Below, piece after piece: positions 12,501-61,860 of a stretch of 64,000 nucleotides of DNA. The notes below the pieces were generated by a model. That model worked only from the letters and a program-made list of their open reading frames with translations. It searched no databases and was not told where the DNA came from. The stretch lies in contig JAOTOL010001604.1 of NCBI GenBank assembly GCA_034440575.1, forward strand, positions 1,284,001-1,348,000, given 5' to 3'. The DNA is from Imbricaverruca yamaguchii (lineage: Eukaryota; Arthropoda; Thecostraca; Neoverrucidae). Positions within the stretch are counted from its first letter, which is position 1. Every line of letters begins with the position of its first letter. A program made the position numbers and the translations under genes.

Positions 12501-14739
12501 GCAATGTTGCTCAAAACCGGAACCATCCAGCCTATCGGTGAATTTTATCAGGGACGTCAAGTGCACGTCACATTACTCAGCGTGGACTACCGTTTTCTAC
12601 TCGTATGTCCCCGATTCTTCGAGAATGTAATATCCGGCCGCGTTCCGTAGCACGTGTAATCACTCCGAGCACTCCCCCTTGGCATGTTGTCCCAGTGAAA
12701 ACTGACATGACTCTAACCTACTCAAAGAAAGGGCAGGTGAGCCCGGAGGAACTCCGCATGTTAGCATTGGAAAAAATACACGAATATCATCACTTTTCAC
12801 GCATTTACACAGACGGCTCAAAGGTCGCCTCTGGTGTCGGGTGTGCTTTCGTAATTAGACAAGGTGTTGGATCTTTTTGTTTACCGACGCAAACATCGAT
12901 TTTTACTGCCGAACTGTATGCCATTCTGCAAGCCCTCTACTTTACACAGAAAGACCGGTCCACAAAACACATGATTTTCGCAGACTCTTTTAGCAGTCTC
13001 CTGGTACTGAACACCTTTAACCAGGATAACCGACTTGTTCGGAGGATTACCAAAGTCGTAAAATCCCTAGATGACGTTGGCAGAAATATCGTGTTCTGTT
13101 GGATTCCCAGCCATGTTGGACTCGCGGGAAACGAAGCTCCCGACATTACCGCCAAACACGCCTTTGGTAATGGCGGTGTGGTCCGTCTACGGCTCCCTCC
13201 AAGGGATCTACACCCCACTATATTATCAAATATACGGTCAGAATGGCAACGAACCTGGAATTCCAAGTGTAGTAAGCTCAGAGTTTTAAAACCGACACTA
13301 GGAAAATGGCTGTCCTCTCACCGAACCAAAAGCCGGGAAGAAGTAATACTCTGCCGATTGAGAATAGGTCATACATTCGCAACACGCAGTTACATGCTTA
13401 CCGGTGACGACCGATCTCTATGTCCGCGCTGCTCGTACCCGCTTACCGTGTACCATGTTTTAGTTGGCTGTACACTACTAGATCCTCTACGACGCCAGAT
13501 GTTAGGGCGGTTGAATACCGACTCCTCTTTACGTATGCTTATAGGGAACGACTCTGAGGTCGTGGTGTCTGGGAATATTTTTACGTTCATTCGACAAGCT
13601 TGCCTTGACGTGATATACCCTCACCCGTGAAGATAGATAGCAAGATATGCTAGCAGCACCGTAGAGTGATTAAAATTTAGTTATGGGCGCAAAGTAACCC
13701 TTGATATCGACGCGCCCCTAAACTCCAATCCACCACCACCACCGACTTCACCGCCGTCCGCAGGAGTGTAGGCATGCAGGCTCTGGTTTATGCCCGTTGC
13801 ATACATTAATATTTAGTAACTGCCGCTATCGAGACAACCAGAGCCGGAGAAATCGCAGCAACTTGTTGACAGGCCGGCTGGCTGGCTGGCTGATCATATA
13901 CATGCTGCTCTACACTGGATGGACCGGACTGGAATTCAATGGACAGTGCGTGAGACGAAATGTATGACCCTCAATATACCAGGAGGTGCTGAGTTTACAT
14001 CAAAAGTAACGTCAGGATGAGAAATGTAATCTGTGTATTTACATCACATCTTACCTATTCATCATAAATATTTGTTTGGGAACTTTTTGAATGCATCATC
14101 CACCTACACTCGGGCAATATCTATCCCATTTGCACATATCATGGGTATATTTTTCGGAGTACTTTAGCTACTGAGGGCATTTCCCACTAGATGCATTCCT
14201 TGGCACAATTGCACCTATTCATGACTTAGCTTGCTGACATATTGCTGACTTAGCAGTTAGGCTATATGTACATGTATAATGTTTGTATGGTACATGCATA
14301 ATGAAATGCTAACATTTATATTAATTCAATTAAAGCAATACTACCTGGTTATGGACAGCTCATTTTTTAGTGCAGCAAAATTTTAGACATGGCTTAGCTT
14401 GCCAAGATGTTTATGCATACAAAAATGCTAACATTGGTTTTCAGCCCCATGAAAACAAGGTTAATTATCAGCAAGTGCATAGCCGTTTTTTTCATCCAGC
14501 TAAAAAATTCGTACTCCAGCTAAAAATTTTGTACTCCTCTACCAAGAAAAAATATGGAAATCCTACACTGCAAGAAAAAGCAATGTCAATTGTGATAATG
14601 TATTGCCTCCATAGTGATGGGTGCATGGGGGTGTAAAATTACAATGGTGGTTTCATGCCCCACTTGCTGAGCACTTTCTGATGATCACTTTCTGATCACT
14701 TGTTTTCGTGCAATGATTAGTAGTTTGGAATTAAGAGAG

Positions 14740-26818: not shown

Positions 26819-26877
<59 letters not shown>

Positions 26878-26958
26878 TCCGTGCGTACGTCCGTGCGTGC
26901 GTGCGTGCGTGCGTGCGTGTGCGTGTGCGTGCGTGCGTGTGCGTGTGCGTGCGTGCGC

Positions 26959-27006
<48 letters not shown>

Positions 27007-30000
27007 CGCGCGCCGCGCTGTCGCCAGGCGGCGCCGACACGGACAGCGAGGGCGGCAAGGAGAACATCGTCAACTTCAGCAGCGACCCGGCGTCGTCGCG
27101 GCCGACGTCGCCGGCGCCGCTGTGCAGCCAGTCGTGGCACAGCTGCCGCAAGCTGATCTACGTGCCGCGCTCGGCGCAGAAGGGCTTCCCGCTGGGCCAC
27201 TGGCCCATCCCGGAGGCGTTCTGGCCGGAGGTGACGTCGCCGACGCTGGTGAGTGCCGTCCCGGGTGCAGCGCTGGCACCGCTCGGGGCAGTTCCAGATC
27301 CGCGTCCCGCCGGCGAAGCAGTTCGGGCGGCGGTCGTGCGTGCAGTACGTCGGGAACCGTCCAGTGTACAAACACGATGGTCAGTGGTGTGTGTGCGTGT
27401 GTGTGTCGAGCCACCGGTGACGTAGTGTCGGTGTGTGTGTGTGTGTGTGTGTGTTGTGAGCGGGCTGGTGTGGCGGCTCGCACCAGCCGGTCGATTCGTT
27501 GCGGTGTTTCCGGTGCAGCACTTCGACAGTGCGTCGTGGTCCGTGGTGTTTAGTTCGCCTTCTGTTTGGTTTTGCCGTGTTGCTCGCTCGTACGTAACGT
27601 GGGGCGATATCACCATTTTGCGTGGGGATGTGTATCACTAACCCCGTTGCTTCCTTTCGTTCTACAGTTGGTGGCGTCGTCTTTGGACGTGCCGGCCACT
27701 GCGACGTTGTTGAGTCCGATTTCCATTATCCGTAGGGCTGTGCAGGTTACTCGTCAGCATTCTTGTGTCGATCGCCTTCGAGCTGGTTTGCCCGTGCTGG
27801 CGGTCCATCAGGACCCGCGCCGTAACCGGGCAGACGACTGTGACGTCAACTGACGACTGATGTGCGGCCGTGACCGACCGGACACAGTTGTGACGTCAGT
27901 GATGTGTAGCCTGAGCGTGTGCAGCTGGACGCCGGCCGATGTGTGGCGTGTCTGACGTGTGACGCGCCGTGCCCGCAGCCGTCGCGCTCGGCCCACCCGG
28001 TGGTGAAGTTCACCTGCACCAGTCGAGAGCCGATGGTGATAGAGAACCTGCCGTTCGACAAGTACGAGCTGGAGCCCAGCCCGCTGACGCAGTTCATCCT
28101 GTCGCGCAAACAGCCGGCCACCTGCTGGCAGGTGGGTGACGCTCGAGGGTGGCAGGTGGGTGACGCCCGAGGGTGGCAGGTGGGTGGCGCCCGAGGGTGG
28201 CAGGTGGGTGACAGCCGAGGGTGGCAGGCGGGTGGCGCCCGAGTGTGGTAGGTGGGTGGCGCCCGAGGGTGGCAGGTGGGTGACGGCCGAGGGTGGCAGG
28301 TGGGTGACGCCAGAGGGTGGTAGGTGGGTGACGCCCGAGGGTGGCAGGTGGGGCGGCTCCAGATGCGGCGGTGAACGTGTGGTTATGCTGTGGCGGCACA
28401 GATATTGTCAGGGTGCTGTGTTTGTTGGTGTAGTCGCTCACTCGCATATTACATATACAAACGACAGCTAACGCTCCGGCTGGGAGCGATTGTACTCGCC
28501 CGTACAGTATTGAAGATGCAGTCTTTATTCTCTTCACCGACTATCTATATGTACGTGTATTTGTGCGAACTGTTTGCGGATGTCCAAATATGGTTCAGAA
28601 GGGCAAGGACGTCTTTACGTCCTCGCAGGCTAGTGTTAGTATGATGCAAACTAATGGTTTTTCGTCAGGTATAACATGCCGAAACGGACAGAGTAGGATG
28701 TCAAAGTTTTCGGTGTAGACACGTCTCAAATATCGTGAGACCCCTTCAAGTTCAATTTTTAGCCATTGGCATCCTGATAGGTGTACGCTTTTCGTATATT
28801 TTGGAAAAGAACTATTATAAGGATACGAATATTAACGAAAACGAAAAATAATGTCAATAGTATTAACAAATGCATTGCATAACAAACTGCATGGGAGGTG
28901 GTCGCTTTACCTCGAATTATGTCAAAAGACGGTTGTGTATTACAAAATGTTATGGTGAGCATGAACATTATGCTTATAGACGAGATGCTGTTAGAAGTGA
29001 GACATGAAGACTTCATGAACACATGTATAGGAGCACGATATTGATTCTCCTTGGGCGCTAAATGAGCCTTGAATGTCGGCGCGCCCTGAAGCCCCAATAA
29101 ACAATATTGATTCTCCTTTGGCAAGGATGCTTATTCAGTGTCCAGGAAGTGGTATATTCCACTCATTTCCCGAATATTTTCTCACTGTCTGGCTTAATGC
29201 ATAAAACGACGTATTGTTGTGAGGAGTATAAAGCGCATCACTACTGTCTCCATCCATTCAAAAGTGATACGCACATTATTCCCGAGTGGCAACTAATCTC
29301 CTGTTCGGGCGATGATGCGCGTTCGCGTGCTCCTGAATCGCCGCCAAGTCAGCCACCTCACGCTGTCGCCGACCGTCTCGGCAGGTGTACATCGCCAACA
29401 GCTCGAAAAACGGCGACCCCGGCCTGCCGTTCGGCTACCTGAAGGCCAGCACGACGCTGACGTCCGTCAACCTGTTCGTCATGCCGTACAACTACCCGGT
29501 GCTGCTGCCGCTGCTGGACGAGCTCTTCAAGGTGCACCGGCTCAAGCCCACCAAGGAGTGGAAGGCGCGCTTCGACAACTATCTGCGGTCTATGCCGGCC
29601 TACTACGCACAGGTAGTCACGGCTTACTGCGCACAGTGCATGCGGGCGCGGCTCGTAGTAGTTCTTGAGCCACTATGCACAGGCCAAGCACGAACGACTC
29701 TGAGGTCGTGGCGTCTGGGGATATTTTTGCCTTCCTTCGACAAGCTCGCCTAGAGGTGATATACTCCCACCCTTGAATATTAATAACAAGCAGCCCCGTA
29801 TATTGATTATAATGGTTATGTGCGCAACATGGCCCTGGATGTCGACGCGCCCCTAAGCTCCAATTCACCACCACCACAGGCCAAGCACAATTATATTACC
29901 GCCATGCTGACCTGTGATGGATAGCGAACACTCATACCAGCCTGCTATTGATATTTAATGTTACGATGCTCTCCTGCAGTGCACAAGTAATGCTGTTATG

Positions 30001-33000
30001 TTACCCGTGGGCGCAGTATGCCAGCCAAGTCGGTGGCCCGTGTATGCCGAACCTCCAGTACAGCTGACTACCGAACCTCCAGTACAGCCACCAGTTGACG
30101 CACCGGCTGGGTGGTGGTGTGCGCGGTCAAGTCTCGGACCGTCAAGTCTCGGAGTGCGGTGGGTGGCGGTGTGGCCGAGCTGACACGGCTGCCGCCGCTC
30201 CGTTACAGCCGCTGAGGCAGGCGCTGAAGCGGATGGGCGCGCCCAACCTGGTGCCCGACAACCTGGACAACGGCCTCTCTGTCAACGTCATCAACCACCT
30301 GAAGCGGCTCAAGAACCAGGCCAAGCTGGAGTACGACCGGCTCTGCAGTGAGGTGCGTGAGCGGGCGGCTGGCGTCTGCCGGCCGACGCTGCCCCGGCCG
30401 GCGATGGTGCCGACTCCCAGCACGACCGCTCGTGGCACGCCTGTCGGGCGAGACGTCGGCACGTACCTGGTCGCGCTGGGTCCAGCCGCTCCCGCTGTGG
30501 ACGGTGTTTTGCGGCGCTGCCGTGGTCGGTGACGGTGCGCAGTGCAGTCGCGTGTGCCTGCCTGATGTACTGGGAGTCGTTTCGTCGCGGGTCGGAGCTG
30601 CCTATTCCGTGCCCGCATGTGGGAGCTGGTCACTTCTATGCAAATCGGCGCAGGAGTGTCCGCTCCGACTGAGAACTGTGAACGGAGGCAATGCGTTTGT
30701 GTTATCTGCGGAGTTGGTGGCCAACGCCCGAGCACCGCGCTCGTTCAGCGGGACATGTGTTCGCCTGACTGAGCCTGGCCCGACCTTCGCAGGTGTCGGC
30801 GAGACTGCCCGGCTCGGATCAAGCCGGCATCAAAGTCACCAGTCGAAAGTCGGCCCGACGAGAAGCCACCAGCAACCCGGCTTTCAGCGGTGAGGACGCA
30901 CCGCCCGAACTCCGACTCCTGGTAGCACCGAATGCAGTGGATGTGTGGATGTAGCGTTATCAGACATGGTAGGCAAGTTACTCGCTATTTAACATCAATG
31001 ATATGGGAACGTCTCATGGGCGCTAAATGATCACAATTTTTGGTCAAGGCGCTCTAAAACTCAGATAACTAACTATGGAAACGTCCCAACCGTACGCTGT
31101 GATGATCAAGGCAAGCGACATCGACCTACCCTCGTGCCGTGACTTGCCTTGGTGCTCACCAGGGGTATCTCATGGTACTGCTTGGCAGATACTGGTATTC
31201 TCGTCGGTCCGTCAGGTTCGTCGGTTCGAGTGCCGACCTGTCCTGACCGTGAAGCAATTGCCCGTTTCATAGTTGTTCACACGGTCTTCTTAACCGCTGT
31301 TAGCCCGTGGCTCTTTGTCACTGTCCATTCGCTGTCAGCCGGTTACGTGACAGCATGTTTTGCCCCTGTCTGTTTAGTTTATTGTGTCTGGATCTACTCG
31401 TTTCTTTTGATACGTTTCATCGCTGCATCGCGCTGCATGCGTTTCATCATCGTTGTCGGTGTCGGTGCCGGGCCCCCGTCTGGAGTTGTGCTCCGGGTGC
31501 GGCATTCCTCGGTCATCGGCCTCCCTGGACCGTGTCTGGTCTCGGTATCGGTGTCGGCGCGGAGTCCCCATCTGGGTTGTGCTCCGGGTGCGGCATTCCT
31601 CGGTCATCGGCCTCCCTGGACCGCGTCTGGTCTCAGTATCGGTATCGGTATCGGCGCGGAGTCCCCATCTGGAGTTGTGCTTCGTGTCGCAGTTCATCCC
31701 GGTTGCTGGCCCGTGTTCTGCGAGTGGATGGCACCTGGTCTGGTGTGGCACGTTCTCCTGCAGTCGCGTGCACTGCAGTCGCAACGCCAGTTGGCTGTGT
31801 CCTGCTTGCGAAGCCTCTTGCATGTCCGCGTGGTGTCGTGCGCAGTGAGTGGTCTTCTCGCAGCCCGTGTTGGTCCAGCTCCAGCCCATTCTCCAGTCTC
31901 GCGGGCGGTGACCGGTCCCGGGGCGACATCGGAGTCCTCTGTGTAGGCGTCGCAGGATGGGGTGGATCGTGATTTTTCACGACGGCAGCACTGTAACCCG
32001 GGATGCGGGTGCCGGCGTTCCAGTTCGGAGAACCGTTTGTTGCAGGACGGTCTTGTGGATCTCCTCTCCACCCAGTCCTTTTAGTTCAGTCCTGAGCTTC
32101 TGGAATCCGTTGCAGTTGAGCTGTATCAGCCGGGCGGTGTCTTGGTTCAGGGCCGTTGCTGCGAGCGGTTTTCCTCGGTTTGCATCCTGCCCTAATCTTC
32201 GCCTTCCGTCCATTCTGCTCTGCTGTTCCGCCATGCAACATTGCGTGTGCCCTTCCCCACAGACAAGTTATCGAGTCTGACGGACCATCTGCATGACTCG
32301 TGTGGCCTTCCCCACAGACAAGTTCTCGAGTCTGACGGACCATCTGCGTGACTCGTGTGGCCTTCCCCACAGACAAGTTCTCGAGTCTGATGGACCATCT
32401 GCGTGACTCGTGTGGCCTTCCCCACAGACAAGTTCCGAGTCTGATGGACCATCTGCATGACTTGTGAGCCCTCCCCACAGACAAGTTCCGAGTCTGATGG
32501 ACCATCTGCGTGACTCGTGGCCTCCCCACAGACAAGTTCCGAGTCTGACGGACCACCTGCGTGACTCGTGTGCCCTTCCTTACAGACATGTTCACGAGTC
32601 TGATGAACCATCTGGATGACCCGTGTGGCCTTCCCCACAGACAAGTTCTCGAGTCTGCTGGACCAGATGCGCGACGTGGCAGGTGTGACGCTGGCCGTGA
32701 GGGACGGGGAGTTGGCCACACAGAGCTACCGCAACCCGTTCGACATCAGTCGTCGCCACCTGCTCGACCAGCTGGTGCGCATGCGCGCCAACTTCCTGCA
32801 GACCAACGTGGCGCTCGTGCGCATGCAGGATCAGGTGAGAACCCCGCCGGCCGATGGTGGTGACATCTAGAGAAGAGGTGTTTGTTAGTGTGTGCGTTGT
32901 TGTCACGTCGTGCTTGTTTATGTGTTTGAGAGCGATCGCTACCTTGCTTTAGCGATCCTCGCTTTGGCAACGTGCGAAATGGCAGGTGGTAGTGTCACTG

Positions 33001-40610: not shown

Positions 40611-43600
40611 CTGCCGGCAGCGGCTGGTGAGCGGAAAACCAGCCGGCGGCACACAATCGTGCACAATCGGCGCGTCAGCGAATAATGCAGACTTTTCAGG
40701 TGCGTTCGACACAACCGAACACCGCACTTAGGAAAATCTTCATATTATTTAATGCTGCCTTTGGTCATGGTATCACGAGAATCAGCAGCAAAATTAGCAA
40801 ACAATTACTTGCTAAACTATGACGGCATTTTCCACGATGAACGTTTGCCCCGGCCCTAAACGGTATTTGGAGCACCGTATTTGACCCGACAAACAGCATT
40901 TCAGTTTTAGTGAGCTTTGCCCACTGGCATGTAAAGCCCTAATTTTAGTGTTTGCAAACCTTGATGTAAATAGTATTCCCTGGTTATTCCAACATCGTAC
41001 AGCTAACAACAATGCGTGAGACGAAATGTACGAAACTCAATATACCAGGAGGTGCTGAGTTTACATCAAAAGTAGCGTTAGAGATTATGCTATACTACTC
41101 AACGTTTCAGCCAGGGGCCATCGTCAAGAGTCAAAACCCAGGATCACTTAAGAGCCATTCTTCGTTGTATTAAACACCTAACAACAAGTCATTGTTTTAG
41201 CACTGCCCCAGGGTGGCTTCACATGGATCAAAGCCATAGCCGTCTCGCTACTACAGAGCAGATGTGGCACGGGCGAAGCCAGCCATACTATTACGTTGAC
41301 TTTCTTTCGAACAGAAGTGTTAAGCGCTCTTTGACGGCACGGACCACTGGTTCACGGTCCTCTTTTCGATCGGAAAGCACATCCATATCTCCCCTCGCCT
41401 CGAAACATGATGCAACACACATTACAGCCGACGTGACCCGACACAGCACCCCTAGTGACCCGACAGTGTCCCTCTCGTGACCCGACACGGAGCAGGAGCA
41501 CCAGACAGCCAGCAGCCGACCGACGTGACCCGCCACAGTACCCCTCGTGGCCCGCGGTGACCCGACAGGGCCACCCACACGTGCTCTCGTGACCCGACAT
41601 GGAGCAGGGGGCACCAGACAGCCAGCACCCGACCGTCGTGACCCCCACAGTGTCCCTCTCGTGACCCGACAAGGAGCCGGGGCACCAGACAGGAGCACCA
41701 GACAGCCAGCCGACCGACGTGACCCGCCACAGTACCCCTCGTGACCCGACAAGGAGCAGGAGCACCAGACAGCCAGCACCCGACCGACGTGACCCGCCAC
41801 AGTTCCCCCTCCCCCGTGACCCGACACGCTCGCGGGCTACGCTCACGCTCACCTCGTGACACTTGTTGTAGGCGCGCGTGACGGGCTTCTGGTCGGGCCG
41901 CTGCCGGTGCTGCTCGTGCACGGTCTCGACGCTCTCCAGCGTGACCGAGTACTGCACGCACCGCACGTCCGCCTCGGTGAAGTCCAGCGTGGCCACCACG
42001 TCTTCGCCCAGCTTGAACACCGTCTTGAACAGGCAGAAGCGCACCACGCGGCCGTGCTGGCGACACAGGCACGTCGGCTCAGCCGACGGGCGGCCGTGTG
42101 CGGCGGGGATGCAAGGACCGAAACTTCTCCACTTTTTAACACCAAGGAAGCATGCACCCGGAATGGTAAGCTTGTCTTTTTCCCATGTAAGAAACATGTC
42201 AGCCTCGGAATGCGTTAATGAGTTGTGACAGTAAACAGGTGCACCCAATCCGCGTGATGTGTATTTGGGCTCACGATAAATATTTGCCCGCCCACTTTAC
42301 AACTGTATTCTAATGTCATATCGCCAAAACTTTTCCATCAAAAGTCGAATTAGATAACCGAATCCTGGTGAAGCATGCTATATGCTGCACATGATGCACA
42401 TGCTGCACGATACTGGAGCCGAGCGCCCACTGGCCGTGGACATGTGCAGGAGTTGGTGGTGTCAGACTCAGGACCGGCGACACGGTACCGGGTACACGCC
42501 CGGGAACTAGCTGATTCACTGCCTACTGTCTAACGCCGAATGGCGACGGAGGTTTGAACTCCCGACCAGTCCCACTGGCCACTCTCAGACCCCTTCTCAG
42601 ACCACAGGAACCGAAATCCATTTCCTCCGGGAGGCGGGGTTTGCATGTCACCCAAATTGATGAAAAAGATTAACACAAATACACCCTAATCGCGAGTATA
42701 GATGAAAAATTCCCAAACTAAGACAATGACGATGGATGGCATAATAACACAGAAGGAAGCATAGCATAATCCTCAAACGTCTGGAGAGAAAAAATGTCAC
42801 GCCCTACAAATTCCACGGGGAAAAACAGACTCCAATAATAACATAACTTCATTACGTTTAAGTAGGCATATCTCATCTACAAATACTCGACCTTTCCCCT
42901 CTGGATGGTCGGCTAAACTGAACCCAACACGACTCCCTCTCAAGCACAGTACAACTAGTGCACATAAATGGCCAGGATATGACAGAACGTGGTGCGGACC
43001 TGCATCTTTGAGCGACCAGTCCTCTGCAACCGTGCACCTGTCACCTGCCGCTGTGACTCATGTGGTTGGTGATGTTGTAGTAGTTGGGCGACTCACGTGG
43101 TTGGTGATGTTGTAGTAGTTGGGCAACTCACGTGGTTGGTGATGTTGTAGTAGTTGGGCGACTCACGTGGTTGGTGATGTTGTAGTAGTTGGACGACTCA
43201 CGTGGTTGGTGATGCTGTAGTAGTTGGACGACTCACGTGGTTGGTGATGCTGTAGTAGTTGGGCGACTCACGTGGTTGGTGATGTTGTAGTAGTTGGGCG
43301 ACTCACGTGGTTGGTGATGTTGTAGTAGTTGGGCGACTCACGTGGTTGGTGATGTTGTAGTAGTTGGGCGACTCACGTGGTTGGTGATGTTGTAGTAGTT
43401 GGGCGACTCACGTGGTTGGTGATGTTGTAGTAGTTGGGCGACTCACGTGGTTGGTGATGTTGTAGTAGTTGGGCGACTCACGTGGTTGGTGATGTTGTAG
43501 TATGGGCGACTCACGTGGTTGGTGATGTTGTAGTAGTTGGGCGACTCACGTGGTTGGTGATGTTGTAGTAGTTGGGCGACTCACGTGGTTGGTGATGTTG

Positions 43601-46600
43601 TAGTAGTTGGGCGACTCACGTGGTTGGTGATGTTGTAGTAGTTGGGCGACTCACGTGGTTGGTGATGTTGTAGTAGTTGGGCGACTCACGTGGTTGGTGA
43701 TGTTGTAGTAGTTGGGCGACTCACGTGGTTGGTGATGTTGTAGTAGTTGGGCGACTCACGTGGTTGGTGATGTTGTAGTAGTTGGGCGACTCACGTGGTT
43801 GGTGATGTTGTAGTAGTTGGGCGACTCGCGTGGTTGGTGATGTTGTAGTAGTTGGGCGACTCACGTGGTTGGTGATGTTGCAGTAGTTGGGCGACTCACG
43901 TGGTTGGTGATGTTGTAGTAGTTGGGCGACTCACGTGGTTGGTGATGTTTTAGTAGTTGGGCGACTCGCGTGGTTGGTGATGTTGTAGTAGTTGGGCGAC
44001 TCACGTGGTTGGTGATGTTGCAGTAGTTGGGCGACTCACGTGGTTGGTGATGTTGTAGTAGTTGGGCGACTCACGTGGTTGGTGATGCTGTAGTAGTTGG
44101 GCGACTCACGTGGTTGGTGATGTTGTAGTAGTTGGGCGACTCACGTGGTTGGTGATGTTGTAGTAGTTGGGCGACTCACGTGGTTGGTGATGTTGTAGTA
44201 GTTGGGCGACTCACGTGGTTGGTGATGTTGCAGTAGTTGGGCGACTCACGTGGTTGGTGATGTTGTAGTAGTTGGGCGACTCACGTGGTTGGTGATGTTG
44301 TAGTAGTTGGGCGACTCGCGTGGTTGGTGATGTTGCAGTAGTTGGGCGACTCGCATGGTTGGTGATGTTGTAGTAGTTGGGCGACTCGCGTGGTTGGTGA
44401 TGTTGTAGTAGTTGGGCGACTCACGTGGTTGGTGATGTTGTAGTAGTTGGGCGACTCGCGTGGTTGGTGATGTTGTAGTAGTTGGGCGACTCACGTGGTT
44501 GGTGATGTTGTAGTAGTTGGGCGACTCGCGTGGTTGGTGATGTTGCAGTAGTTGGGCGACCCACATGGTTGGTGATGTTGCAGTAGTTGGGCGACTCACG
44601 TGGTTGGTGATGTTGTAGTAGTTGGGCGACTCGCGTGGTTGGTGATGCTGCAGTAGTTGGGCGACTCACGTGGTTGGTGATGTTGTAGTAGTTGGGCGAC
44701 TCACGTGGTTGGTGATGTTGTAGTAGTTGGGCGACTCACGTGGTTGGTGATGTTGTAGTAGTTGGGCGACTCACGTGGTTGGTGATGCTGTAGTAGTTGG
44801 GCGACTCACGTGGTTGGTGATGTTGTAGTAGTTGGGCGACTCACGTGGTTGGTGATGTTGCAGTAGTTGGGCGACTCACGTGGTTGGTGATGTTGTAGTA
44901 GTTGGGCGACTCACGTGGTTGGTGATGTTGTAGTAGTTGGGCGACTCACGTGGTTGGTGATGTTGCAGTAGTTGGGCGACTCACGTGGTTGGTGATGTTG
45001 TAGTAGTTGGGCGACTCACGTGGTTGGTGATGTTGTAGTAGTTGGGCGACTCACGTGGTTGGTGATGTTGTAGTAGTTGGGCGACTCACGTGGTTGGTGA
45101 TGTTGTAGTAGTTGGGCGACTCACGTGGTTGGTGATGTTGTAGTAGTTGGGCGACTCACGTGGTTTGTGATGTTGTAGTAGTTGGGCGACTCACGTGGTT
45201 GGTGATGTTGTAGTAGTTGGGCGACTCACGTGGTTGGTGATGTTGTAGTAGTTGGGCGACTCACGTGGTTGGTGATGCTGCAGTAGTTGGGCGACTCACG
45301 TGGTTGGTGATGTTGTAGTAGTTGGGCGCACGTCGTGCCACGCTGTGCTGCAGCAGCTGCAGCGTGGCATCGTGCGGCGACTCGGCCTCCTGGCTGGCGC
45401 GCAGGAACGGGTTTGCCGGAGAGATGTCGTCCGTGTCGCCGCCGCAGCGCGCCACCAGCCGGGCGTCCAGCGGCAGCACGCGCACCAGCACGCGCAGCAG
45501 ACGGATCGACGTGTTGACCCGCTGAGCGCCGACCGTCACCTGCAGCGGCGGCCGGCCGTCACCAGCCCGTCACCAGCCCGTCACCACCGTCACCAACACG
45601 TCTGCGGTCTGGCGGCAGCCGAGCGCCACCTCCGCCTCCTCTGCACCATTCGACGACACTCAGCAGAGCGTGCTGGTGCTTTGCAAATATGGGAGGATAC
45701 AGGAGGCAAGCAACAAAGTTGTTCCAAGAAGCAAAGCACTCACCACCATCACAGAATGCTTCTTTGCTGGCAGTTCATGAAGTTAGAAGGCATAATTGCA
45801 CGTGTTATGACTCCAGAACCATGTATCAAATTATCGATTCCGGCGGGTCATGACGAAAAATTAAAACAATCCCGAACTAAACGCGGGCCTCTCCTGCATC
45901 CACCACTGGTGCATGCATTACGCCAGAGTGGGGAGCGCTACTCTGGCAACTCGGGTCACTATTTTCCAGCACAGCCAACGACCGGCGCCCCGACTCGCCC
46001 CAGCTGGTCGGCCGCGTCACCCGCGCCGCCCACCTTGTACACGTATTTGACGGCCTGGCCCAGGTAGGTGGGGATGGCGTCGGCCGGCAGCAGCTGGCTG
46101 TAGTCGAGTCGGCGCGCCTGGCCCGGCCGCAGGCGCAGGTCGCACACCAGGATGGTCGGCTGGGTGGCCAGCACGATGCGGCCTCGCTCGCCGCGGTCCG
46201 GCAGGTAGGCCGTGCTGGAGACGGCCGGCCGGCCGTCGGCCGCCGCCTGGCGCACCTTGTCGTCGTTCACCTGGCAGAAGCACTGCACCTGGCGTGGCGG
46301 CGGAGAACGTGCGGTCACCTCACGTCTCAGGTTGGCTATTGGTTTTTACGACACGTCGACCGTTGAGTCATGCAGCGTCGCCAATCTCTCACGCCGATTG
46401 GTCGCGGGCGAAGAGTAGCGGCAGGTGAGATTCGAACCCACAACCTTTCGATTGCAAGACGAACATCTTACCCTCACACTTCACGTCTCAAGATTCTCGT
46501 GAACATGAAAACAATACTGTTGCTGTTATACCACTGACTGGTGCAGATTACATCACGGCATAAGGCATTTCAAGGTGCCATGTCAAGTCACTGAGCTGTG

Positions 46601-47681
46601 ATGCTATAAGAGGACAATGTGAGGAAATGTTTGCCAACATTGCAAATTATTGACAATTAATGTCATTTATTACAACCAAATGTCTGATGATGGGTGTGAT
46701 ATGATGGTGGACAACTCACCAGCTCTGTTTACATAGGTTATTGGCCTTTATTGGGTCATGTTATGCCATTACCTTAAGTTGGCATGGCATTGGACTTTTG
46801 AGTCACTATGGGTATTTGGACATCAAAACGAACGTGAAATTCATCATGACTTCAGGTATAAAATTACTACAATACAGCATAAGTTCATAGGACTAAAAAA
46901 ATGTGGTCATCTCCTCTGCCTCATCTGACCTATGGGTCAAAATGTAACATAGATATGGTATTTTATTAGTATGCCAAGATACTGATGAAACTGATCAACA
47001 CTAGGTTGAACATTCATGCAGACATTGTTTATTGTTTTACACAGGGAATTATTAAATGTCAATATTACTGATCTGGTGACAACAACAAAAAGCCTCACCT
47101 GGTGGATCCAAGCGTACCCTAGGGATGTAAATCTTGTTTTAAGAGGAAGATTTTGTCATGTTCAGCATACTGTTTTTGTGCCCAACACTCCCCACCTGGA
47201 AACTCTAGAGGATCACAACAAACCCATGGACAGGGAAGGCAGCAACATGCTGTGCATGTGTCAGAATCATTCCATTTTTGGAATCATGTCCAATAGTCCC
47301 CTTTGTTGCCATCAGCCCTATAAAGATATGGCAAAATCTGCAGTAACAACTTTTGGGGCATTATCTTCATACTTGGCAAACTTCATTACTAATGTTCATC
47401 TTGTACTGTGCAACCAAAGCCATATGGTGGTGGGTTGTACCCATATATAAACACAAATAAAATGTTTTTGGTGTACTACTTTAGTTTCAAGCAAGTGGTA
47501 TATATAGAAATGCTGAACTTACCTGGGCACTGACCCATGCCAAGTTTTCACAGACATCATTGTTGGATGTGGCAGGTGCTTCTCTGTCTAGCTGAGGGCA
47601 CCTCAGTGTGATAGTGCATCTTAGTGCCTGGCCAGCCAAGAACACTGGACCATCCAGCAGATCACAGGAAATCTCAATCAT
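40308..47681 (-). CDS. RGP1: RGP1, RAB6A-GEF complex partner protein 2 (gene span, 5 coding exons)
   Basis: RGP1 forms with RIC1 the exchange factor that activates the Golgi GTPase RAB6 (Ypt6 in yeast). Its fold is arrestin-like. The joined exons give 386 residues, close to the roughly 390 of vertebrate RGP1. Conserved blocks in order: MIEIS..LLDGPVFLAGQAL (1-20), NLAWVSAQVQCFCQ (47-59), YLPDRGERGRIVL, ILVCDLRLRPG, YLGQAVKYVYKVTVGAQRVN, LRVLVRVLPL, YNITNHHGRVVRFCLFKTVF, KLGEDVVATLDF, and near the end LPIPLHVTP, VSLQWRLHFEFVT and VWDLPVQI. All introns are phase 0 GT-AG. The span includes introns. Convergent with INTS6. Confidence 0.94.
41011..41077 (+). repeat. Dispersed repeat R-D, copy 2
   Basis: Nearly identical to 13944-14016. 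It lies in RGP1 intron 4. The rest of this intron, outside this and the minisatellite, shows no recognised feature. Confidence 0.8.
41440..41832. repeat. ~70-90 bp minisatellite in RGP1 intron 4
   Basis: Irregular units built from CGTGACCCGACA, GGAGCAGGAGCACCAGACAG, CCAGCACCCGACCGACGTGA and CCGCCACAGTACCCC. It begins about 20 bp inside the intron from the exon 4 donor (GTGAGC on the - strand), but the units do not contain the donor. Confidence 0.9.
41853..42056 (-). CDS. RGP1: RGP1 coding exon 4
   Basis: Encodes HGRVVRFCLFKTVFKLGEDV, VATLDFTEADVRCVQYSVTL and ends RAYNKCHE. The acceptor on the - strand is TGTCGCCAG and the donor GTGAGC, phase 0. CpG-rich and highly GC-rich. Confidence 0.94.
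42057..43054 (-). other. RGP1 intron 3, unique part
   Basis: About 1 kb between the 35-bp array and exon 4. No coding or repeat feature is recognised. Open frames crossing the exon 4 boundary are not real. Confidence 0.55.
43055..45330 (-). repeat. 35-bp minisatellite, about 65 copies, carrying the RGP1 exon 3 end and splice donor
   Basis: On the - strand each unit reads AACTACTACAACATCACC then AACCAC|GTGAGTCGCCC. The first 24 bases code NYYNITNH, exactly the last eight codons of exon 3, and GTGAGT is the donor. The unit next to the exon (45300-45330) is the true exon end. About eight units have GT changed to GC (plus-strand ACTCGC), for example at 43825, 43969, 44317 and 44389. One unit near 43500 lacks two bases. 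Because 35 is not divisible by 3, the frame rotates every unit, and typical units bring in TGA in one frame. Confidence 0.97.
45300..45539 (-). CDS. RGP1: RGP1 coding exon 3
   Basis: Encodes VTVGAQRVNTSIRLLRVLVR, VLPLDARLV, NPFLRASQEAESPHDATLQL and ends APNYYNITNH. The acceptor on the - strand is GCTGCAG. I chose the first GTGAGT as donor because it joins exon 4 in phase 0 to restore the family's YNIS-type block; about 64 equivalent donors follow. Confidence 0.94.
46034..46288 (-). CDS. RGP1: RGP1 coding exon 2
   Basis: Encodes VQCFCQVNDDKVRQAAADGR, AYLPDRGERGRIVLATQPTI and TYLGQAVKYVYK. The acceptor on the - strand is CCACGCCAG and the donor GTGGGC, phase 0. Confidence 0.95.
46330..46480 (-). 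mobile_element. tRNA-derived SINE (family 2), full-length
   Basis: On the - strand: GTGAGGGTAAGATGTTCGTC (A-box region), GTTGTGGGTTCGAATCTCAC (B box), a TACTCTTCGCCCGCGACCAA body and the end AACCAATAGCCAACC. Flanked by TCACGTCTCA (46320-46329 and 46481-46490). It lies in RGP1 intron 1, 40 bp from exon 2. Confidence 0.9.
46491..47522 (-). other. RGP1 intron 1, AT-rich part
   Basis: No gene or repeat of this window's families is recognised. CpG is nearly absent, in contrast to exons 2-5. A 144-codon frame on the + strand (47016-47450) has no motif. Confidence 0.5.
47523..47681 (-). CDS. RGP1: RGP1 coding exon 1
   Basis: Starts at ATG 47681-47679 with MIEISCDLLDGPVFLAGQAL, the family N-terminus, and ends NLAWVSAQ before GTAAGT. 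The frame is open further upstream but I start at this Met because the family does. Ten bases before the ATG is an acceptor TGTGCCTTTCAG (ending 47692), so the exon begins at 47691 and a 5'-UTR intron probably precedes it. Confidence 0.94.
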
Positions 47682-55318: not shown

Positions 55319-55793
55319 TTGGTCTAGCACAATTGGTCCACTGGAAGTAAATGGGACTACATTGGGTGAGGATAGTGAGATGGTTGGAGGAGCTGAGCAA
55401 GCAGTTCAAATCAGTGTTTACATTGGAAGATATGACCAATCTGCCGACCATACACCATAGTTCAATGACATGGGATCTGACAAATGATGTTGACTTCATT
55501 GATAGTGATGTTGTTTACAATCATATCAGGAAAATAAAGCAAAATAAGACAGCAGGACCTGATGAAATTTATGCTAGGGTGTTGCGGGAAACTGAAAAGG
55601 AACCGGCATTTCCACTTAGTGTAATATTTTATAGATCAGTTTCACATAATGAAATTCCAACCGATTGGAAAAGGGCAAATGTAGTTCCTATTTTCAAGAA
55701 AGGAGAAAGAGGGAAAGTTGAAAACTACAGGCCAATAAGTCTCACATCCCTAGTATGCAAGGTACTTGAATCAATTATCAAGGATAGAATAAA
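55319..55793 (+). pseudogene. CR1/L2-type reverse transcriptase fragment, duplicate of 57543-58016
   Basis: Reads TIGPLEVNGTTLGEDSEMV, then TAGPDEIYARVLRETEKE and ENYRPISLTSLVCKVLESII. It is nearly identical in DNA to 57543-58016. It has an extra G near 55383 (GGTTGGAGGAG against GGTTGAGGAG), while the other copy has an extra G near 57810, so each is broken at a different point. It ends abruptly before ORF1-type sequence. Confidence 0.9.
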
Positions 55794-55795
55794 AG

Positions 55796-58700
55796 TAAAG
55801 GTAGGAGGGACAGGAGGTGCATCACCAGGCCTGGTGCCAAGGTGAAGGACCTGGTACCTGCGGTGGCACAGGTCACCAGTGATCACCAGTTTAACACAGT
55901 CATAGTGCATGTAGGGGTAAATAACATAAGTCATACTAGGAGCGAGGAGCTTCTGCGGGAGTACAGGGCCCTTCTGGCCACCCTGAAGGGTACCAATAGA
56001 GTGCTTGTAACAGGAATTTTGCCTAGGGCTAGAGCCTCCCCTGAGTGGAGCTCTAGGGCACTGGCAGCTAACACCAGGGTAGGAAAGCTCTGCCAGGAGC
56101 TAGGTTTTACATTTGTAGACGAGTGGAGCAGGTTTTATGCATCGTGGGACCTCTATCAGAGGGATGGCCTGCATTTTTCTGAGAAGGGGGTCCATGTGTT
56201 AGGCAAAGTATATGAGCATGTCCTTCAGGGAAACTAGGAAATGGGGTGGGGAGGGATGAAATTGCATTGCCAACTCAGGAATATTCCAATAGTGTCAGCC
56301 AAGGTAATAGAACCTCAAAGTCTGCAAATAGGGACAGCAGCAACTCAAGGGGACAGAGTTATAGTTCATCTAGTGATAAAAGAACTCCTCAATATGAAAA
56401 GGTCAAAGGTGGTTATGGAGCATTTGTTAAGTGTATGATGTTTAATGCTCAGAGTATCCGTTCCAAATTTGATGAATTCAAGTGTTATGTTGCTGAGGAG
56501 GAACCGGATTTTGTTTGCATTACGGAGGCATGGGTCAGTGAAGGATATTTTGGAGATAACTTACAGGACTATGAGATCCAGGGATACAATATGTTTTCGT
56601 GCAATAGGGGTCCAGCAATGAAAGGGGGTGGTGTAATGCTATATGTGAATAGCTTATTCAGTTCTCAAAAAGTAGCAGGTGGGGATAAAAATGTGTCTGT
56701 GGAGTCCATTTGGCTTGATGTCACTGTGGGAAAAGGCAACAGCAATACTCTTAGGATAGGAGCTTTCTACCGATCAGGAACCCTGCCACATTCTCAGCAA
56801 CTGGAGCTTGACAAGGTGATTTGTGAGGAAATCAGTAGAAACTTTAAGAGGAAGTGCCTTATTCTCGGTGACTTTAATCTAAAAAGGTTATGAAAATGCT
56901 GGTGTTGGCTCCCCATCATGCAAAATGTTCAGGAAATGCCTTGAAGAGGACCTGTTCTTACACCAGTTTTTATCGGAACCTACCAGGCATGGTTCATTCT
57001 TGGACCTTGTATTCTCGGATTTAAGTGACTTGGTTCAAGACTTGACTGTAGGCGAAACTCTGGGAAAAAGTGACCATAACATAATTAGATTCAAGGCACA
57101 TGTAGGGGAGATTATCAAGGATAATTTGGTAAAGGTTCCAAATTTCAACAGAGCAGACTTTAACGGCATGAGAGCGGCTTTAAGTGCCATCAGATGGGAA
57201 GATGAATTCTCCAATTTAAATGCCTGTGAAATGTGGGAAAAGTTCAAATCTTACTTAAAGGAAACTCAGATTAGACATGTCCCCCAAAAGCAAAGACGCA
57301 AAAGAAGGGTAGGAAAGCCAGCATGGCTTACACCAGACGTGATAAAAGCAATTAGGGCTAAGAAAACTGCATTTAGAGTTTTTAAAGAAGCCTCAAATGT
57401 CATTAATCTAAAGGCGTATCGAAAAGCTAGAGACACTGTGAAGCAAAAAACCAGAGCAGCAAAGCGAGCAAAGGAACTGGATTTAGCTAGAAACTGTAAT
57501 GGGGACAGTAAAAAGTTCTTTAGTTTCTACAAGCTGAGTAAAGTTTCTAGCACAATTGGTCCACTGGAAGTAAACGGGACTACATTGGGTGAGGATAGTG
57601 AGATGGTTGAGGAGCTGAGCAAGCAGTTCAAATCAGTGTTTACATTGGAAGATATGACCAATCTGCCGACCGTACACCATAGTTCAGTTACATGGGATCT
57701 GACAAATGATGTTGATTTCATTGGTAGTGATGTTGTTTACAATCATATCAGGAAAATAAAGCCAAATAAGGCCGCAGGACCTGATGATATTTATGCTAGG
57801 GTGTTGCGGGGAAACTGAAAAGGAACTGGCATTTCCACTTAGTATAATATTTTGTAGATCAGTTTCACATAATGAAATTCCAACCGATTGGAAAAGGGCA
57901 AATGTAGTTCCTATTTTCAAGAAAGGAGAAAGAGGGAAAGTTGAAAACTATAGGCCAATAAGTCTCACATCCCTAGTATGCAAGGTACTCGAATCAATTA
58001 TCAAGGATAGAATAGTTAGTTATCTGGAAGGTAGCAGATTGATTCAAAATACTCAACATGGGTTTAGAAAAGGATGATCGTGTCTCACAAACCTCTTGGA
58101 CTTTTTGAACTTCGCCACAGAACAATTTGATCAGGGAAATCAGGTTGATGTAGCATATCTTGACTTTAGTAAGGCCTTTGACAAGGTACCCCATAAACGG
58201 TTAATGATACAGCTTCAGTCCCATGGTATTGCAGGTAGCATCTTGAAAAGGATAGAGTTGTGGCTTTCAGATAGACAGCAAAGAGTGATGCTAAATGGTA
58301 CAAAGTCATCATGGCAAAATGTTCTTAGTGGAGTCCCCCAGGGGTCAGTACTAGGGCCATTACTGTTCATTATATTTGTAAATAACATTGAAAGCGGCCT
58401 AAGCAGTAAAGTTTTGAAATTTGCGGATGATTTGAAGGTCTTTAGAGCAATAACAGGTCAGGATGAGCATATATCGCTGCAAAAAGACTTAGACAAACTT
58501 GTGAAGTGGTCCGAAGAATGGCAAATGAAATTTAACTTTGATAAGTGCAAAATCATGCATGTAGGTAAGCAGCATATGAAGGCTCCATACTTGATGGGTG
58601 GCCAAGTGCTATCAGTGACTCAACAGGAGAAGGATTTAGGTGTTATTCTAAACACAAAACTGGGGGGCATCAGAACAGACCAAGGAAGCCAGGAAGAAGG

Positions 58701-59004
58701 CACTGAGAATGCTCGGGGCAATAAATAGGAATGTATCATACAGAAGTGAGGAAGTGATCAGGAAGCTTTACTGTGCATACGTCAGGCCACATTTGGAATA
58801 CTGCATCCAAGCTTGGTCTCCTAGCTATGAAAAAGATTGTTGGCTTTTGGAGAGAGTACAAAAGAGGGCTACAAAAATGGTTAATGGCATAAGCAACCTG
58901 GCATATGAGGAAAGATTGAAGAAATTGAATATGTTTTCACTTAGATATAGAAGGCTGAGAGGAGATCTCATCGAGGTCTTTAAATTTGTCAATGGTCTGG
59001 AGAT
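55796..59004 (+). mobile_element. CR1/L2-type LINE, truncated at both ends
   Basis: Has the ORF1 esterase-like domain, then ORF2 endonuclease and reverse transcriptase. The 5' part of ORF1 is missing at the junction near 55796. The 3' end breaks off after FKFVNGLE at 59004 and runs straight into the ~44-bp satellite. The SGNH-type ORF1 domain is a known feature of CR1/L2-group LINEs. No target-site duplication can be found because both ends are lost. Confidence 0.9.
55842..56240 (+). pseudogene. LINE ORF1, SGNH esterase-like domain (partial)
   Basis: Frame open from the junction: VIVHVGVNNISHTRSEELLR, then GILPRARASPEW, and DGLHFSEKGVHVLG near the end. VGVNN (block III-like) and DGLHFSEKG (Asp and His of block V) are SGNH-hydrolase signatures. 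The N-terminal GDS block is missing, lost with the 5' end. It stops at 56235-56237. Confidence 0.85.
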
Positions 59005-59460: not shown

Positions 59461-59679
59461 TTCTGTGCTCGTGCATTGGCCACATGGCTGCATGATCAGT
59501 TAGTTTCTGGCTAGCTGCTGAGCATCACTACTGTGTGCCGATGAGTGAGGTGTTTGTGTGTGTGTGCAGGATGTGTGGTCATCCACTGTCCGTGGACTGT
59601 GTCATGTGACCTTGCCTGAGGGCATAATATTGAGCCCACATTGGCAGCGAACTGAGAGTGCCGCACAGTAGAGGCTGAC

Positions 59680-61860
59680 TGTGTGTGTTGGAGAGAGGCT
59701 GGCTGCACATGCTGGAGACAGGCTGACTGTGTGTGTTGGAGAGAGGCTGGCTGCACATGCTGGAGAGAGGCTGGCTGTGTGTGTTGTAGAGAGGCTGGAT
59801 GTGTATGTTGGAGAGAGGCTGGCTGTGTGTGTTGGAGAGAGGCTGGCTGTGTGTGTTGTAGACAGGCTGGCTGTGTGTGTTGGAGAGAGGCTGGCTGTGT
59901 GTGTTGGAGACAGGCTGGCTGTGTGTATTGGAGAGAGGCTGGCTGTGTGTGTTGTAGACAGGCTGGCTGTGTGTGTTGTAGACAGGCTGGCTGTGTGTGT
60001 TGTAGACAGGCTGGCTGTGTGTGTTGGAGACAGGCTGGCTGTGTGTGTTGTAGACAGGCTGGCTGTGTGTGTTGGAGACAGGCTGGCTGTGTGTGTTGGA
60101 GAGAGGCTGGCTGCATGTGTTGGAGAGAGGCTGGCTGTGTGTGTTGTAGACAGGCTGGCTGTGTGTGTTGGAGACAGGCTGGCTGTGTGTGTTGTAGACA
60201 GGCTGGCTGTGTGTGTTGGAGACAGGCTGGCTGTGTGTGTTGGAGAGAGGCTGGCTGCATGTGTTGGAGAGAGGCTGGCTGCATGTGTTGGAGAGAGGCT
60301 GGCTGCATGTGTTGGAGAGAGGCTGGCTGTGTGTGTTGGAGACAGGCTGGCTGTGTGTGTTGGAGAGAGGCTGGCTGTGTGTGTTGGAGACAGGCTGGCT
60401 GTGTGTGTTGTAGTGAGGCTGGCTGTGTGTGTTGTAGACAGGCTGGATGTGTATGTTGGAGAGAGGCTGGCTGTGTGTTGGAGAGGCTGGCTGTGTGTGT
60501 GTTGTAGACAGGCTGGCTGTGTGTGTTGGAGACAGGCTGGCTGTGTGTGTTGTAGACAGGCTGGCTGTGTGTGTTGGAGAGAGGCTGGCTGTGTGTGTTG
60601 GAGAGAGGCTGGCTGTGTGTGTTGGAGAGAGGCTGGCTGTGTGTGTTGGAGACAGGCTGGCTGTGTGTGTTGGAGAGAGGCTGGCTGTGTGTGTTGTAGA
60701 CAGGCTGGATGTGTATGTTGGAGAGAGGCTGGCTGTGTGTGTTGGAGAGAGGCTGGCTGTGTGTGTTGGAAGAGGCTGGCTGTGTGTGTTGGAGACAGGC
60801 TGGCTGTGTGTGTTGGAGAGAGGCTGGCTGTGTGTGTTGGAGACAGGCTGGCTGTGTGTGTTGTAGTGAGGCTGGCTGTGTGTGTTGTAGACAGGCTGGA
60901 TGTGTATGTTGGAGAGAGGCTGGCTGTGTGTGTTGGAGAGAGGCTGGCTGTGTGTGTTGGAGAGAGGCTGGCTGTGTGTGTTGGAGACAGGCTGGCTGTG
61001 TGTGTTGGAGAGAGGCTGGCTGTGTGTTGGAGAGAGGCTGGCTGTGTGTGTTGTAGACAGGCTGGCTGTGTGTTGGAGAGAGGCTGGCTGTGTGTGTTGT
61101 AGACAGGCTGGCTGTGTGTGTTGGAGACAGGCTGGCTGTGTGTGTTGTAGACAGGCTGGCTGTGTGTGTTGGAGAGAGGCTGGCTGTGTGTGTTGTAGAG
61201 AGGCTGGATGTGTGTGTTGGAGAGAGGCTGGCTGTGTGTGTTGGAGAGAGGCTGGCTGTGTGTGTCAGAGAGATGCTGGTTGTGTGTTGGAGAGAGGCTG
61301 ACAGTGTGTGTTGGAGAGAGGCTGGCTGTGTGTGTCAGAGAGATGCTGGTTGTGTGTTGGAGAGGCTGACTGTGTGTGTTGGAGAGAGGCTGGCTGTGTG
61401 TGTTGGAGAGAGGCTCGCTGTGTGTGTTGGAGAGAGGCTGGCTGTGTGTATTGGAGAGAGGCTGGCTGTGTGTGTCAAGAGATGCTGGTTGTGTGTGTTG
61501 GAGAGAGGCTGGCTGTGTGTGTCAGAGATGCTGGTTGTGTGTTGGAGAGAGGCTGACTGTGTGTGTTGGAGAGAGGCTGGCTGTGTGTGTTGTGAGAGGC
61601 TGGCTGTGTGTGTTGGAGAGAGGCTGGCTGTGTGTGTTGGAGAGAGGCTGGCTGTGTGTGTTGGAGAGAGGCTGACTGTATGTGTGTGTTGGAGACAGGC
61701 TGGATGTGTATGTTGGAGAGAGGCTGGCTGTGTGTATTGGAGAGAGGCTGGCTGTGTGTGTTGGAGAGAGGCTGGCTGTGTATGTTGGAGAGAGACTGGC
61801 TGTGCATGTTGGAGAGAGGCTGGCTGCATGTGCTAGGCAGAAGCTGACTGCATGTGCTGT
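59680..61860 (+). repeat. 24-bp satellite array, about 90 copies
   Basis: Unit GGCTGGCTGTGTGTGTTGG plus AGAGA, with GGAGACA, GTAGACA and CTGCATG variants and some 18-23 bp units after 61260. The 24-bp period keeps frames open on both strands (up to 473 codons on +, repeating CVGERLAV). These are translations of a repeat; there is no evidence of a gene. Confidence 0.97.

Follow-up and report, generated by a model that had tools for sequence, protein, structure and literature searches.

A 65-unit minisatellite of an exon end and its splice donor in RGP1 of the barnacle Imbricaverruca yamaguchii, with two splice-site arrays in the neighbouring INTS6 gene

The third coding exon of RGP1 (RAB6A-GEF complex partner 2) of Imbricaverruca yamaguchii ends in a minisatellite of 65 units, each of which repeats the exon edge together with its 5' splice site. 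The neighbouring gene, INTS6, carries two further splice-site arrays, which repeat a donor and an acceptor, respectively. The window analysed is a stretch of 64,000 nucleotides (GCA_034440575.1, contig JAOTOL010001604.1, positions 1,284,001 to 1,348,000 of the forward strand). A sequence-only reading of it had described about 65 copies of an exon end and donor in RGP1, which the count of 65 units bears out (64 of 65 with GT or GC), but it had overlooked the two arrays of like kind in INTS6. The probable history is a duplication of the RGP1 junction that was amplified at little cost and is spliced out via donor 1, with the INTS6 arrays arising likewise. The coordinates of all features are given in Table 1.

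Table 1. Features of RGP1 and INTS6, numbered from the first letter of the window
Feature	Position	Strand	Remarks
RGP1 first coding exon, from ATG	47523..47681	-	
RGP1 coding exon 2	46034..46288	-	
RGP1 coding exon 3, 240 nt	45300..45539	-	Ends with the coding bases of unit 1; donor 1 at 45299
RGP1 array, 65 units	43051..45323	-	Unit-by-unit parse; unit length 35 bp in 64 units, 33 bp in the other
Last RGP1 unit	43051..43085	-	Donor ATGAGT, then CACAG...; taken as native intron and original exon-intron junction
RGP1 coding exon 4, 204 nt, in frame	41853..42056	-	Acceptor pairs with donor 1
RGP1 last coding exon, up to stop codon	40308..40610	-	
INTS6 coding matches to Pollicipes P0121	3428..37428	+	Exons only over part of the span
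INTS6 exon ending ...ATCWQ	27979..28131	+	Final six bases within copy 1 of second array
Second array, at INTS6 exon end	28126..28352	+	24-bp unit TGGCAG|GTGGGTGACGCCCGAGGG, 9.5 copies
Third array	32244..32665	+	8 copies, spacing 51-55 bp, of INTS6 acceptor (CCTTCCCCACAG and variants)
INTS6 exon (DKFSSLLDQMRDVAGV...RMQDQ)	32641..32834	+	5' edge is a unit of third array

The gene was correctly named as RGP1 in the sequence-only reading: the spliced protein contains the Rgp1 domain of Pfam (PF08737, E 6.2e-36; 125 bits, cut-off 31), and its closest relatives are those of barnacles, with 81% identity to Pollicipes over the full length and 77% to Amphibalanus. A search of PDB with the RGP1 protein yielded no match. 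The alignment of exon 3 ends with relatives that had been proposed was made with 24 sequences (that of the window and 23 picked from the 120 relatives listed), and the exon 3/4 junction formed with donor 1, across an intron 3 of 3243 nt, was gap-free in all of them. The junction motif was matched by 96 of the 120 listed relatives, with identical spacing in all 96; the other 24 gave no match to the motif. The exon-end residue is His in this RGP1 and Gln in Pollicipes and Amphibalanus. The His codon is probably older than the amplification, because the base that decides it is C or T in all 65 units.

TRF reported the array at 43055-45328 with a period of 35, 65.0 copies, 97% matches and a score of 4303, and its size and regularity rule out a chance match. 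Each unit consists of the 24 final coding bases of exon 3 (confirmed to translate as NYYNITNH), followed by the 5' splice site and CGCCC, the minus-strand consensus being AACTACTACAACATCACCAACCAC|GTGAGTCGCCC; the single 33-bp unit lies at 43503-43471. The units are arranged head to tail and lie within the range of roughly 10-100 bp typical of minisatellites, and the canonical exon donor is situated within the array and repeated by further units, as expected of a splice-donor minisatellite. The donor forms are CAC|GTGAGT (55 units), CAC|GCGAGT (7), CAT|GTGGGT (1), CAT|GCGAGT (1) and CAC|ATGAGT (1), which gives GT in 56 of 65 units, GC in exactly 8, where about eight had been noted, and AT in the last unit alone. 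When the last unit is left out, 41 of the 63 full-length units are identical to the consensus, with a mean pairwise difference of 2.6%. Variants are spread unevenly, and GC donors are confined to units 20-43. Within the array the donor shows no conservation, the change T26C being the second most frequent variant (8/63 units). A piece of the array searched against a plasmid collection yielded no match.

The 386-aa RGP1 protein, ancestral in sequence, is obtained from donor 1 only, which agrees with the earlier proposal that the first donor is the one used. Donor 2 gives a frameshifted product of 300 aa, and each unit after it (63 of the 65) leads to a stop after codon 230, as had been foreseen in the remark that most units read into TGA; the proposed alternative of donor pairs that leave the protein readable found no example. 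For 63 of the 64 non-first units (counting the last unit with AT), 235 nt or more separate the stop from the last junction downstream of it. Since the first donor yields the ancestral protein and the later ones a frameshift or a stop, the array should behave as an intron of which the exon-adjacent donor alone is productive. An array read as coding sequence was rejected, as frame rotation keeps bringing back TGA; the one minus-strand frame of at least 130 aa inside it (139 aa, 44246-44665) is open at units that have lost TGA (CGA in the GC units, TGG in unit 22).

The description of the repeated donor as a consensus 5' splice site found no support, as the unit has C at position -1 and weak predicted U1 pairing (-5.5 kcal/mol, compared with -11.9 for CAG|GTGAGT; three further donors of RGP1 that were tried range from -8.8 to -11.8). 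The 55 array donors with one nonamer share one predicted pairing. The unit donor is almost self-complementary. Mutual masking of adjacent donors by RNA pairing was considered and rejected, folding being no better than in shuffled sequences (z -0.08 and -0.85).

We infer that a tandem duplication spanning the exon 3/intron 3 junction was amplified to the 2.3-kb minisatellite. The sequence-only reading had offered slippage between CGCCC repeats as a plausible origin of the array. This found no support, as the intron beyond the last unit reads CAC|ATGAGTCACAGCGG and thus shows no second CGCCC for slippage (unless it was mutated there). The CGCCC ahead of unit 1 belongs to the duplicated segment as its left part, and units join from GTGAGTC to GCCCAAC with one base shared. 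The duplication would have been nearly neutral, because the original exon 3 remains attached to the first donor copy. By exon definition the spliceosome would pair the exon 3 acceptor with this exon-adjacent donor, so far as the protein indicates, and the array would leave as intron. Since use of donor 2 would give the frameshifted product and use of later copies a premature stop with predicted mRNA decay, leakage would cost only RGP1 dose. Counting against the choice of donor 1, the 41 consensus-identical units mean that nothing local marks donor 1 off from most others, studies of donor competition often find the intron-proximal site preferred, and the predicted U1 pairing of donor 1 itself is weak.

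The two INTS6 arrays, for which the same route of origin is proposed, are both more diverged than that of RGP1. INTS6 is 95% identical to its Pollicipes counterpart over the scored region, and Integrator subunit 6 chains in PDB match it across the array junction (E 3.2e-99, gap-free over 215 residues). Its junction motif matched 26 of 120 relatives, all with V[FY] next, the other 94 being uninformative. The second array presents 10 donor-like sites, the tenth inside a partial unit reaching 28365; all 10 keep the frame, and no stop occurs in the first 5. Use of a later donor of this array would insert one or more additional VGDARGWQ octapeptides between the products of the exons at 27979-28131 and 29385-29612. 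In the third array each copy joins the acceptor to the ~37 nt with which the exon begins, and the true exon start is the last copy.

Instead of being nearly neutral, the RGP1 array might tune dosage, with decoy donors diverting a length-dependent share of transcripts to NMD-prone isoforms or to transcripts that skip exon 4 (in frame, 204 nt), such that array length, varying between individuals, sets the RGP1 level. The stop predicted for 63 of 65 units and the single nonamer, hence single predicted U1 pairing, of 55 donors are in line with this, as is the human ABCA7 VNTR, in the available part of whose description length tracks exon 19 skipping and reduced expression (PMC5954066). By that analogy near neutrality may be wrong; the array donors, however, bear no sign of constraint, and we regard dosage tuning as rather unlikely. 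Far less credit is due to an assembly artefact. The copy number of a near-identical 2.3-kb array is easily misjudged, or the array itself might be made by assembly, but the uneven variants with GC donors in units 20-43 only, the clean passage of the array ends into exon and intron, and the two more diverged arrays of like kind all speak against it. Equally improbable is a DNA-level element, in which the palindromic E-box CACGTG of each CAC|GTG unit would make the array a putative intronic binding platform: 55 of the 70 CACGTG of the window fall in the RGP1 array, but the motif arises incidentally where C at -1 adjoins GTG. A nearly neutral, amplified duplication spliced out via donor 1 remains the preferred reading.

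Whether splice sites seed arrays was addressed with 35 sites placed by tblastn of Pollicipes proteins, snapped to the nearest GT or AG (26496 doubtful, C-terminal INTS6 sites incomplete), and 26 arrays hand-merged from overlapping TRF rows, excluding units under 8 bp. Exon-side end units of arrays contain three of the 35, where rotation predicts a mean of 0.67 (P 0.03; P 0.02 when restricted to the 19 arrays at 3-48 kb). A smaller, incomplete site list, in which two acceptors were misplaced by 1 and 6 bases, gave 3 of 24 for donors and acceptors (P 0.006). Among 10 donors taken by themselves, 2 lie in such end units (P 0.009); donors anywhere inside an array show no excess (2/10, mean 1.59, P 0.48). 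As the test was selected after the arrays had been seen, and in one window, the end-unit enrichment is a weak lead. It is a speculative extension, and a doubtful one, that in this barnacle lineage splice sites are preferred minisatellite seeds, with exon edges and their donor or acceptor duplicated time and again into the neighbouring intron, the exon-adjacent copy having to be picked and array length tuning RGP1 dose. If so, the three arrays would be natural competition tests (first of 65 and of 10 donors, last of 8 acceptors), among which the acceptor array discriminates: exon definition predicts the last copy (32641), first-come commitment the first (32263).

The choice of one 5' splice site among equals is normally studied via constructs. 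The RGP1 array offers a natural set of 55 donors with identical nonamer spaced by ~35 nt, to which INTS6 next door adds donors arrayed in frame and acceptors in 8 copies; RNA could reveal the copies in use and so tell exon definition apart from transcriptional order. Should such arrays recur genome-wide, splice sites would give rise to minisatellites in these animals, and perhaps to graded losses of gene dose as well. For annotation, gene finders may choose any one of numerous units as the place where the exon ends.

Among the matches listed in a literature search, no title or abstract start mentions an array of splice sites for RGP1, for INTS6 or for any barnacle. An isoform generator like that of IFI6 is defined by an open reading frame kept when further units are used. 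The 35-bp RGP1 unit breaks the frame or brings a stop after the first unit, whereas the frame-keeping 24-bp INTS6 array, open for donors 1-5, is closer to IFI6. In human IFI6 (6-16, G1P3; Turri et al. 1995) an exon-end minisatellite likewise supplies several donors, and the available part of the account reports two downstream units as used donors that give isoforms (PMC4526556). The ABCA7 intron 18 VNTR, as far as its available description goes, resembles the RGP1 array in that tandem units begin at the canonical donor, its first GT being the canonical 5' splice site; the next unit's donor gives out-of-frame retention of one unit alongside canonical splicing, greater VNTR length is associated with increased skipping of the following exon (exon 19) and with lower expression, and in BA10 brain the alternative transcripts combined exceed the canonical one in 90% of samples (PMC5954066). 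Its 25-bp unit is intronic from GT on, whereas the 35-bp RGP1 unit includes 24 coding bases, and the ABCA7 array is characterised by RNA and length data. In human segmental duplications, gene structure is altered where tandem repeats change at the borders of exons and introns, the repeats being mostly minisatellites (mean unit ~30 bp, mean ~4 copies) in recent paralogues; unlike the case of RGP1 and INTS6, the part of that account available describes neither a 65-copy array nor a donor/acceptor set in neighbouring genes (PMC2812944). The repeat context in barnacles is given, in its available part, by PMC9582164. Splice-donor minisatellites have human precedents in IFI6 and ABCA7; what stands out here is their recurrence and the mirroring of donor by acceptor.

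The five joined coding exons of RGP1 encode a protein of 386 aa with a Pfam Rgp1 match of 6.2e-36. The nearest named relatives are those of the barnacles Pollicipes pollicipes (81%) and Amphibalanus amphitrite (77%), both matched over the full length, and no closer protein was found among the best 120 of 236 matches. TRF reported one RGP1 array at 43055-45328 (period 35, 65.0 copies, 97% matches), and a unit-by-unit parse of the same single assembly gave 65 units from 45323 to 43051 on the minus strand, one of them of 33 bp. The consensus unit on that strand is AACTACTACAACATCACCAACCAC/GTGAGTCGCCC, the slash marking the splice junction; unit 1 adjoins the body of exon 3, and the 5' splice site of unit n is called donor n. 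The donors comprise CAC/GTGAGT (n=55), CAT/GTGGGT (n=1), CAC/GCGAGT (n=7), CAT/GCGAGT (n=1) and, in the last unit, CAC/ATGAGT (n=1). Leaving the last unit aside, 41 of the 63 units of full length match the consensus exactly, and the most frequent variants are A8G (10), T26C (8, i.e., the GC donors) and A11G (6). All GC donors lie within units 20-43. The C at position -1 forms the motif CACGTG, 55 of whose 70 occurrences in the window sit in this array.

Coordinates of the coding exons of RGP1 and of the two INTS6 arrays
Feature	Coordinates	Strand	Remarks
RGP1 coding exon 1	47681-47523	minus	supported against Pollicipes
RGP1 coding exon 2	46288-46034	minus	supported against Pollicipes
RGP1 coding exon 3	45539-45300	minus	supported against Pollicipes
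RGP1 coding exon 4	42056-41853	minus	supported against Pollicipes
RGP1 coding exon 5	40610-40308	minus	supported against Pollicipes
INTS6 donor array	28126-28352 (to 28365 with about ten copies)	plus	TRF 9.5 copies
INTS6 acceptor array	32244-32665	plus	eight copies of acceptor + exon start

The junction of exons 3 and 4 is gap-free in an alignment of the window's protein with 23 sequences picked from the 120 listed relatives, and its spacing is identical in all 96 of the 120 relatives that fit the motif (the other 24 do not fit it). Gap-free junction and constant spacing together argue that the ancestral end of exon 3 is copy 1 of the array; by this comparison, donor 1 (45299) joined to the acceptor at 42056 would yield the ancestral product. 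Predicted splicing from donor 1, alone among all units, restores the 386-aa protein. Donor 2 would cause a frameshift (300 aa), with a stop 10 nt beyond the last coding-exon junction, so its transcript would not clearly qualify for NMD. For each of units 3 to 65, the predicted reading frame closes after codon 230, no less than 235 nt before that junction, and retention of the whole intron would end at the same stop; this stop is a TGA made by the repeated CACGTGAGT itself.

The sequence-only reading had proposed slippage between CGCCC repeats as a plausible origin of the array. That origin needs a second CGCCC downstream, and the intron 3' of the last unit, ATGAGTCACAGCGG, shows none, so the proposal is not supported. 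The duplicated segment spans the exon-intron boundary, starting with GCCCAAC on the exon side and finishing with GTGAGTC on the intron side; a single base is shared at the join. A tandem duplication across a splice site would be nearly neutral, because the original exon stays joined to an intact site; the extra copies would then most likely expand as ordinary minisatellite units within sequence that functions as intron. By exon definition, the spliceosome would be expected to pair the exon 3 acceptor with the nearest donor, and leakage to other units would give the frameshifted (donor 2) or stop-bearing forms. Just upstream of the exon 3 acceptor, GTGACGG, the first seven bases of exon 3, occurs four times in an 11-bp repeat (45539-45602); the opposite edge of this exon may have seeded a small array as well.

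U1 is predicted to pair with the array unit at -5.5 kcal/mol, with the GC variants at -1.5 and with the final unit at -2.3, against -8.8 to -11.8 kcal/mol for the three other donors of RGP1 that were scored. The last codon of exon 3 encodes His at a position where both barnacle relatives have Gln, and the codon ends in C or T in all 65 units, so the His codon probably predates the amplification. Assuming a shared intron position, CAG in the relatives would imply that this lineage lost the G at -1 (predicted pairing from -11.9 to -5.5), and CAA would imply no loss (predicted -5.4).

INTS6, the neighbouring gene on the plus strand (coding matches 3428 to 37428), was identified by Integrator subunit 6 PDB chains (E 3.2e-99, gap-free over 215 residues) and its match to Pollicipes is 95% over the scored region. 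It carries two further arrays of this type. The exon ending ...ATCWQ at 28131 has its last six bases in copy 1 of a run of 24-bp units TGGCAG/GTGGGTGACGCCCGAGGG, i.e., six exon and 18 intron bases. Its ten donor-like sites (nine GT, one of them GTGGGG, and one GC) all keep the frame; donors 1-5 are stop-free, and a TAG closes copy 6. Splicing choice among donors 1-5 could thus add 0 to 4 VGDARGWQ-like octapeptides; no insert is present at this position in INTS6 of Pollicipes and Amphibalanus. A GCGT/GT microsatellite (26819-27005) stops about 20 bp short of the INTS6 acceptor at 27028, where the pyrimidine tract is expected. The eight acceptor copies read CCTTCCCCACAG/ACAAGTT..., with variants, and the last (32641) continues into the true exon DKFSSLLDQMRDVAGV (Pollicipes counterpart: DKFASLLEPMQYMAGL). 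In predicted splicing, acceptors 1-6 run into stops inside the array and acceptor 7 shifts the frame; acceptor 8 alone leads to the expected protein. Across the three arrays, the functional copy is expected to be that which adjoins the exon body, the first for donors and the last for the acceptor. The Pollicipes RGP1 and INTS6 proteins (P0001 and P0121) are listed with a source sequence of the same size (42,549,640), which suggests that both genes share one chromosome there too.

In a rotation test on this window (26 merged arrays with units of at least 8 bp; 35 splice sites placed in RGP1 and INTS6), three of the 35 sites fell within an array's end unit on its exon side, against a mean of 0.67 (P 0.03; P 0.02 when restricted to 3-48 kb); a smaller list gave 3/24 (P 0.006). 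Donors anywhere in an array showed no excess in the window. As the end-unit test was picked after the arrays had been seen and is limited to a single window, the over-representation is a lead, no more. The window also holds reverse-transcriptase and endonuclease-like reading frames, LINE-like by eye (10303-13630 and 55351-58728), and a 24-bp array of about 90 copies with several open frames on both strands (59670-61826).

Among the papers listed, a literature search found no report of recurrence of such arrays in two neighbouring genes, of an acceptor array or of a 65-copy exon-plus-donor unit. Splice-donor arrays as a kind are known from ABCA7 and IFI6. For IFI6, a passage of PMC4526556 (citing Turri et al. 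1995) reports downstream units acting as donors. The human ABCA7 VNTR, according to sections of PMC5954066, starts with the exon 18 donor and shows both canonical splicing and one-unit retention; exon 19 is also skipped, and more so as the VNTR lengthens. In one brain region, the combined alternative transcripts are mostly more abundant than the canonical form. As far as those sections describe it, the RGP1 array resembles the ABCA7 VNTR in having the canonical exon donor in its first unit and repeating that donor in later ones.
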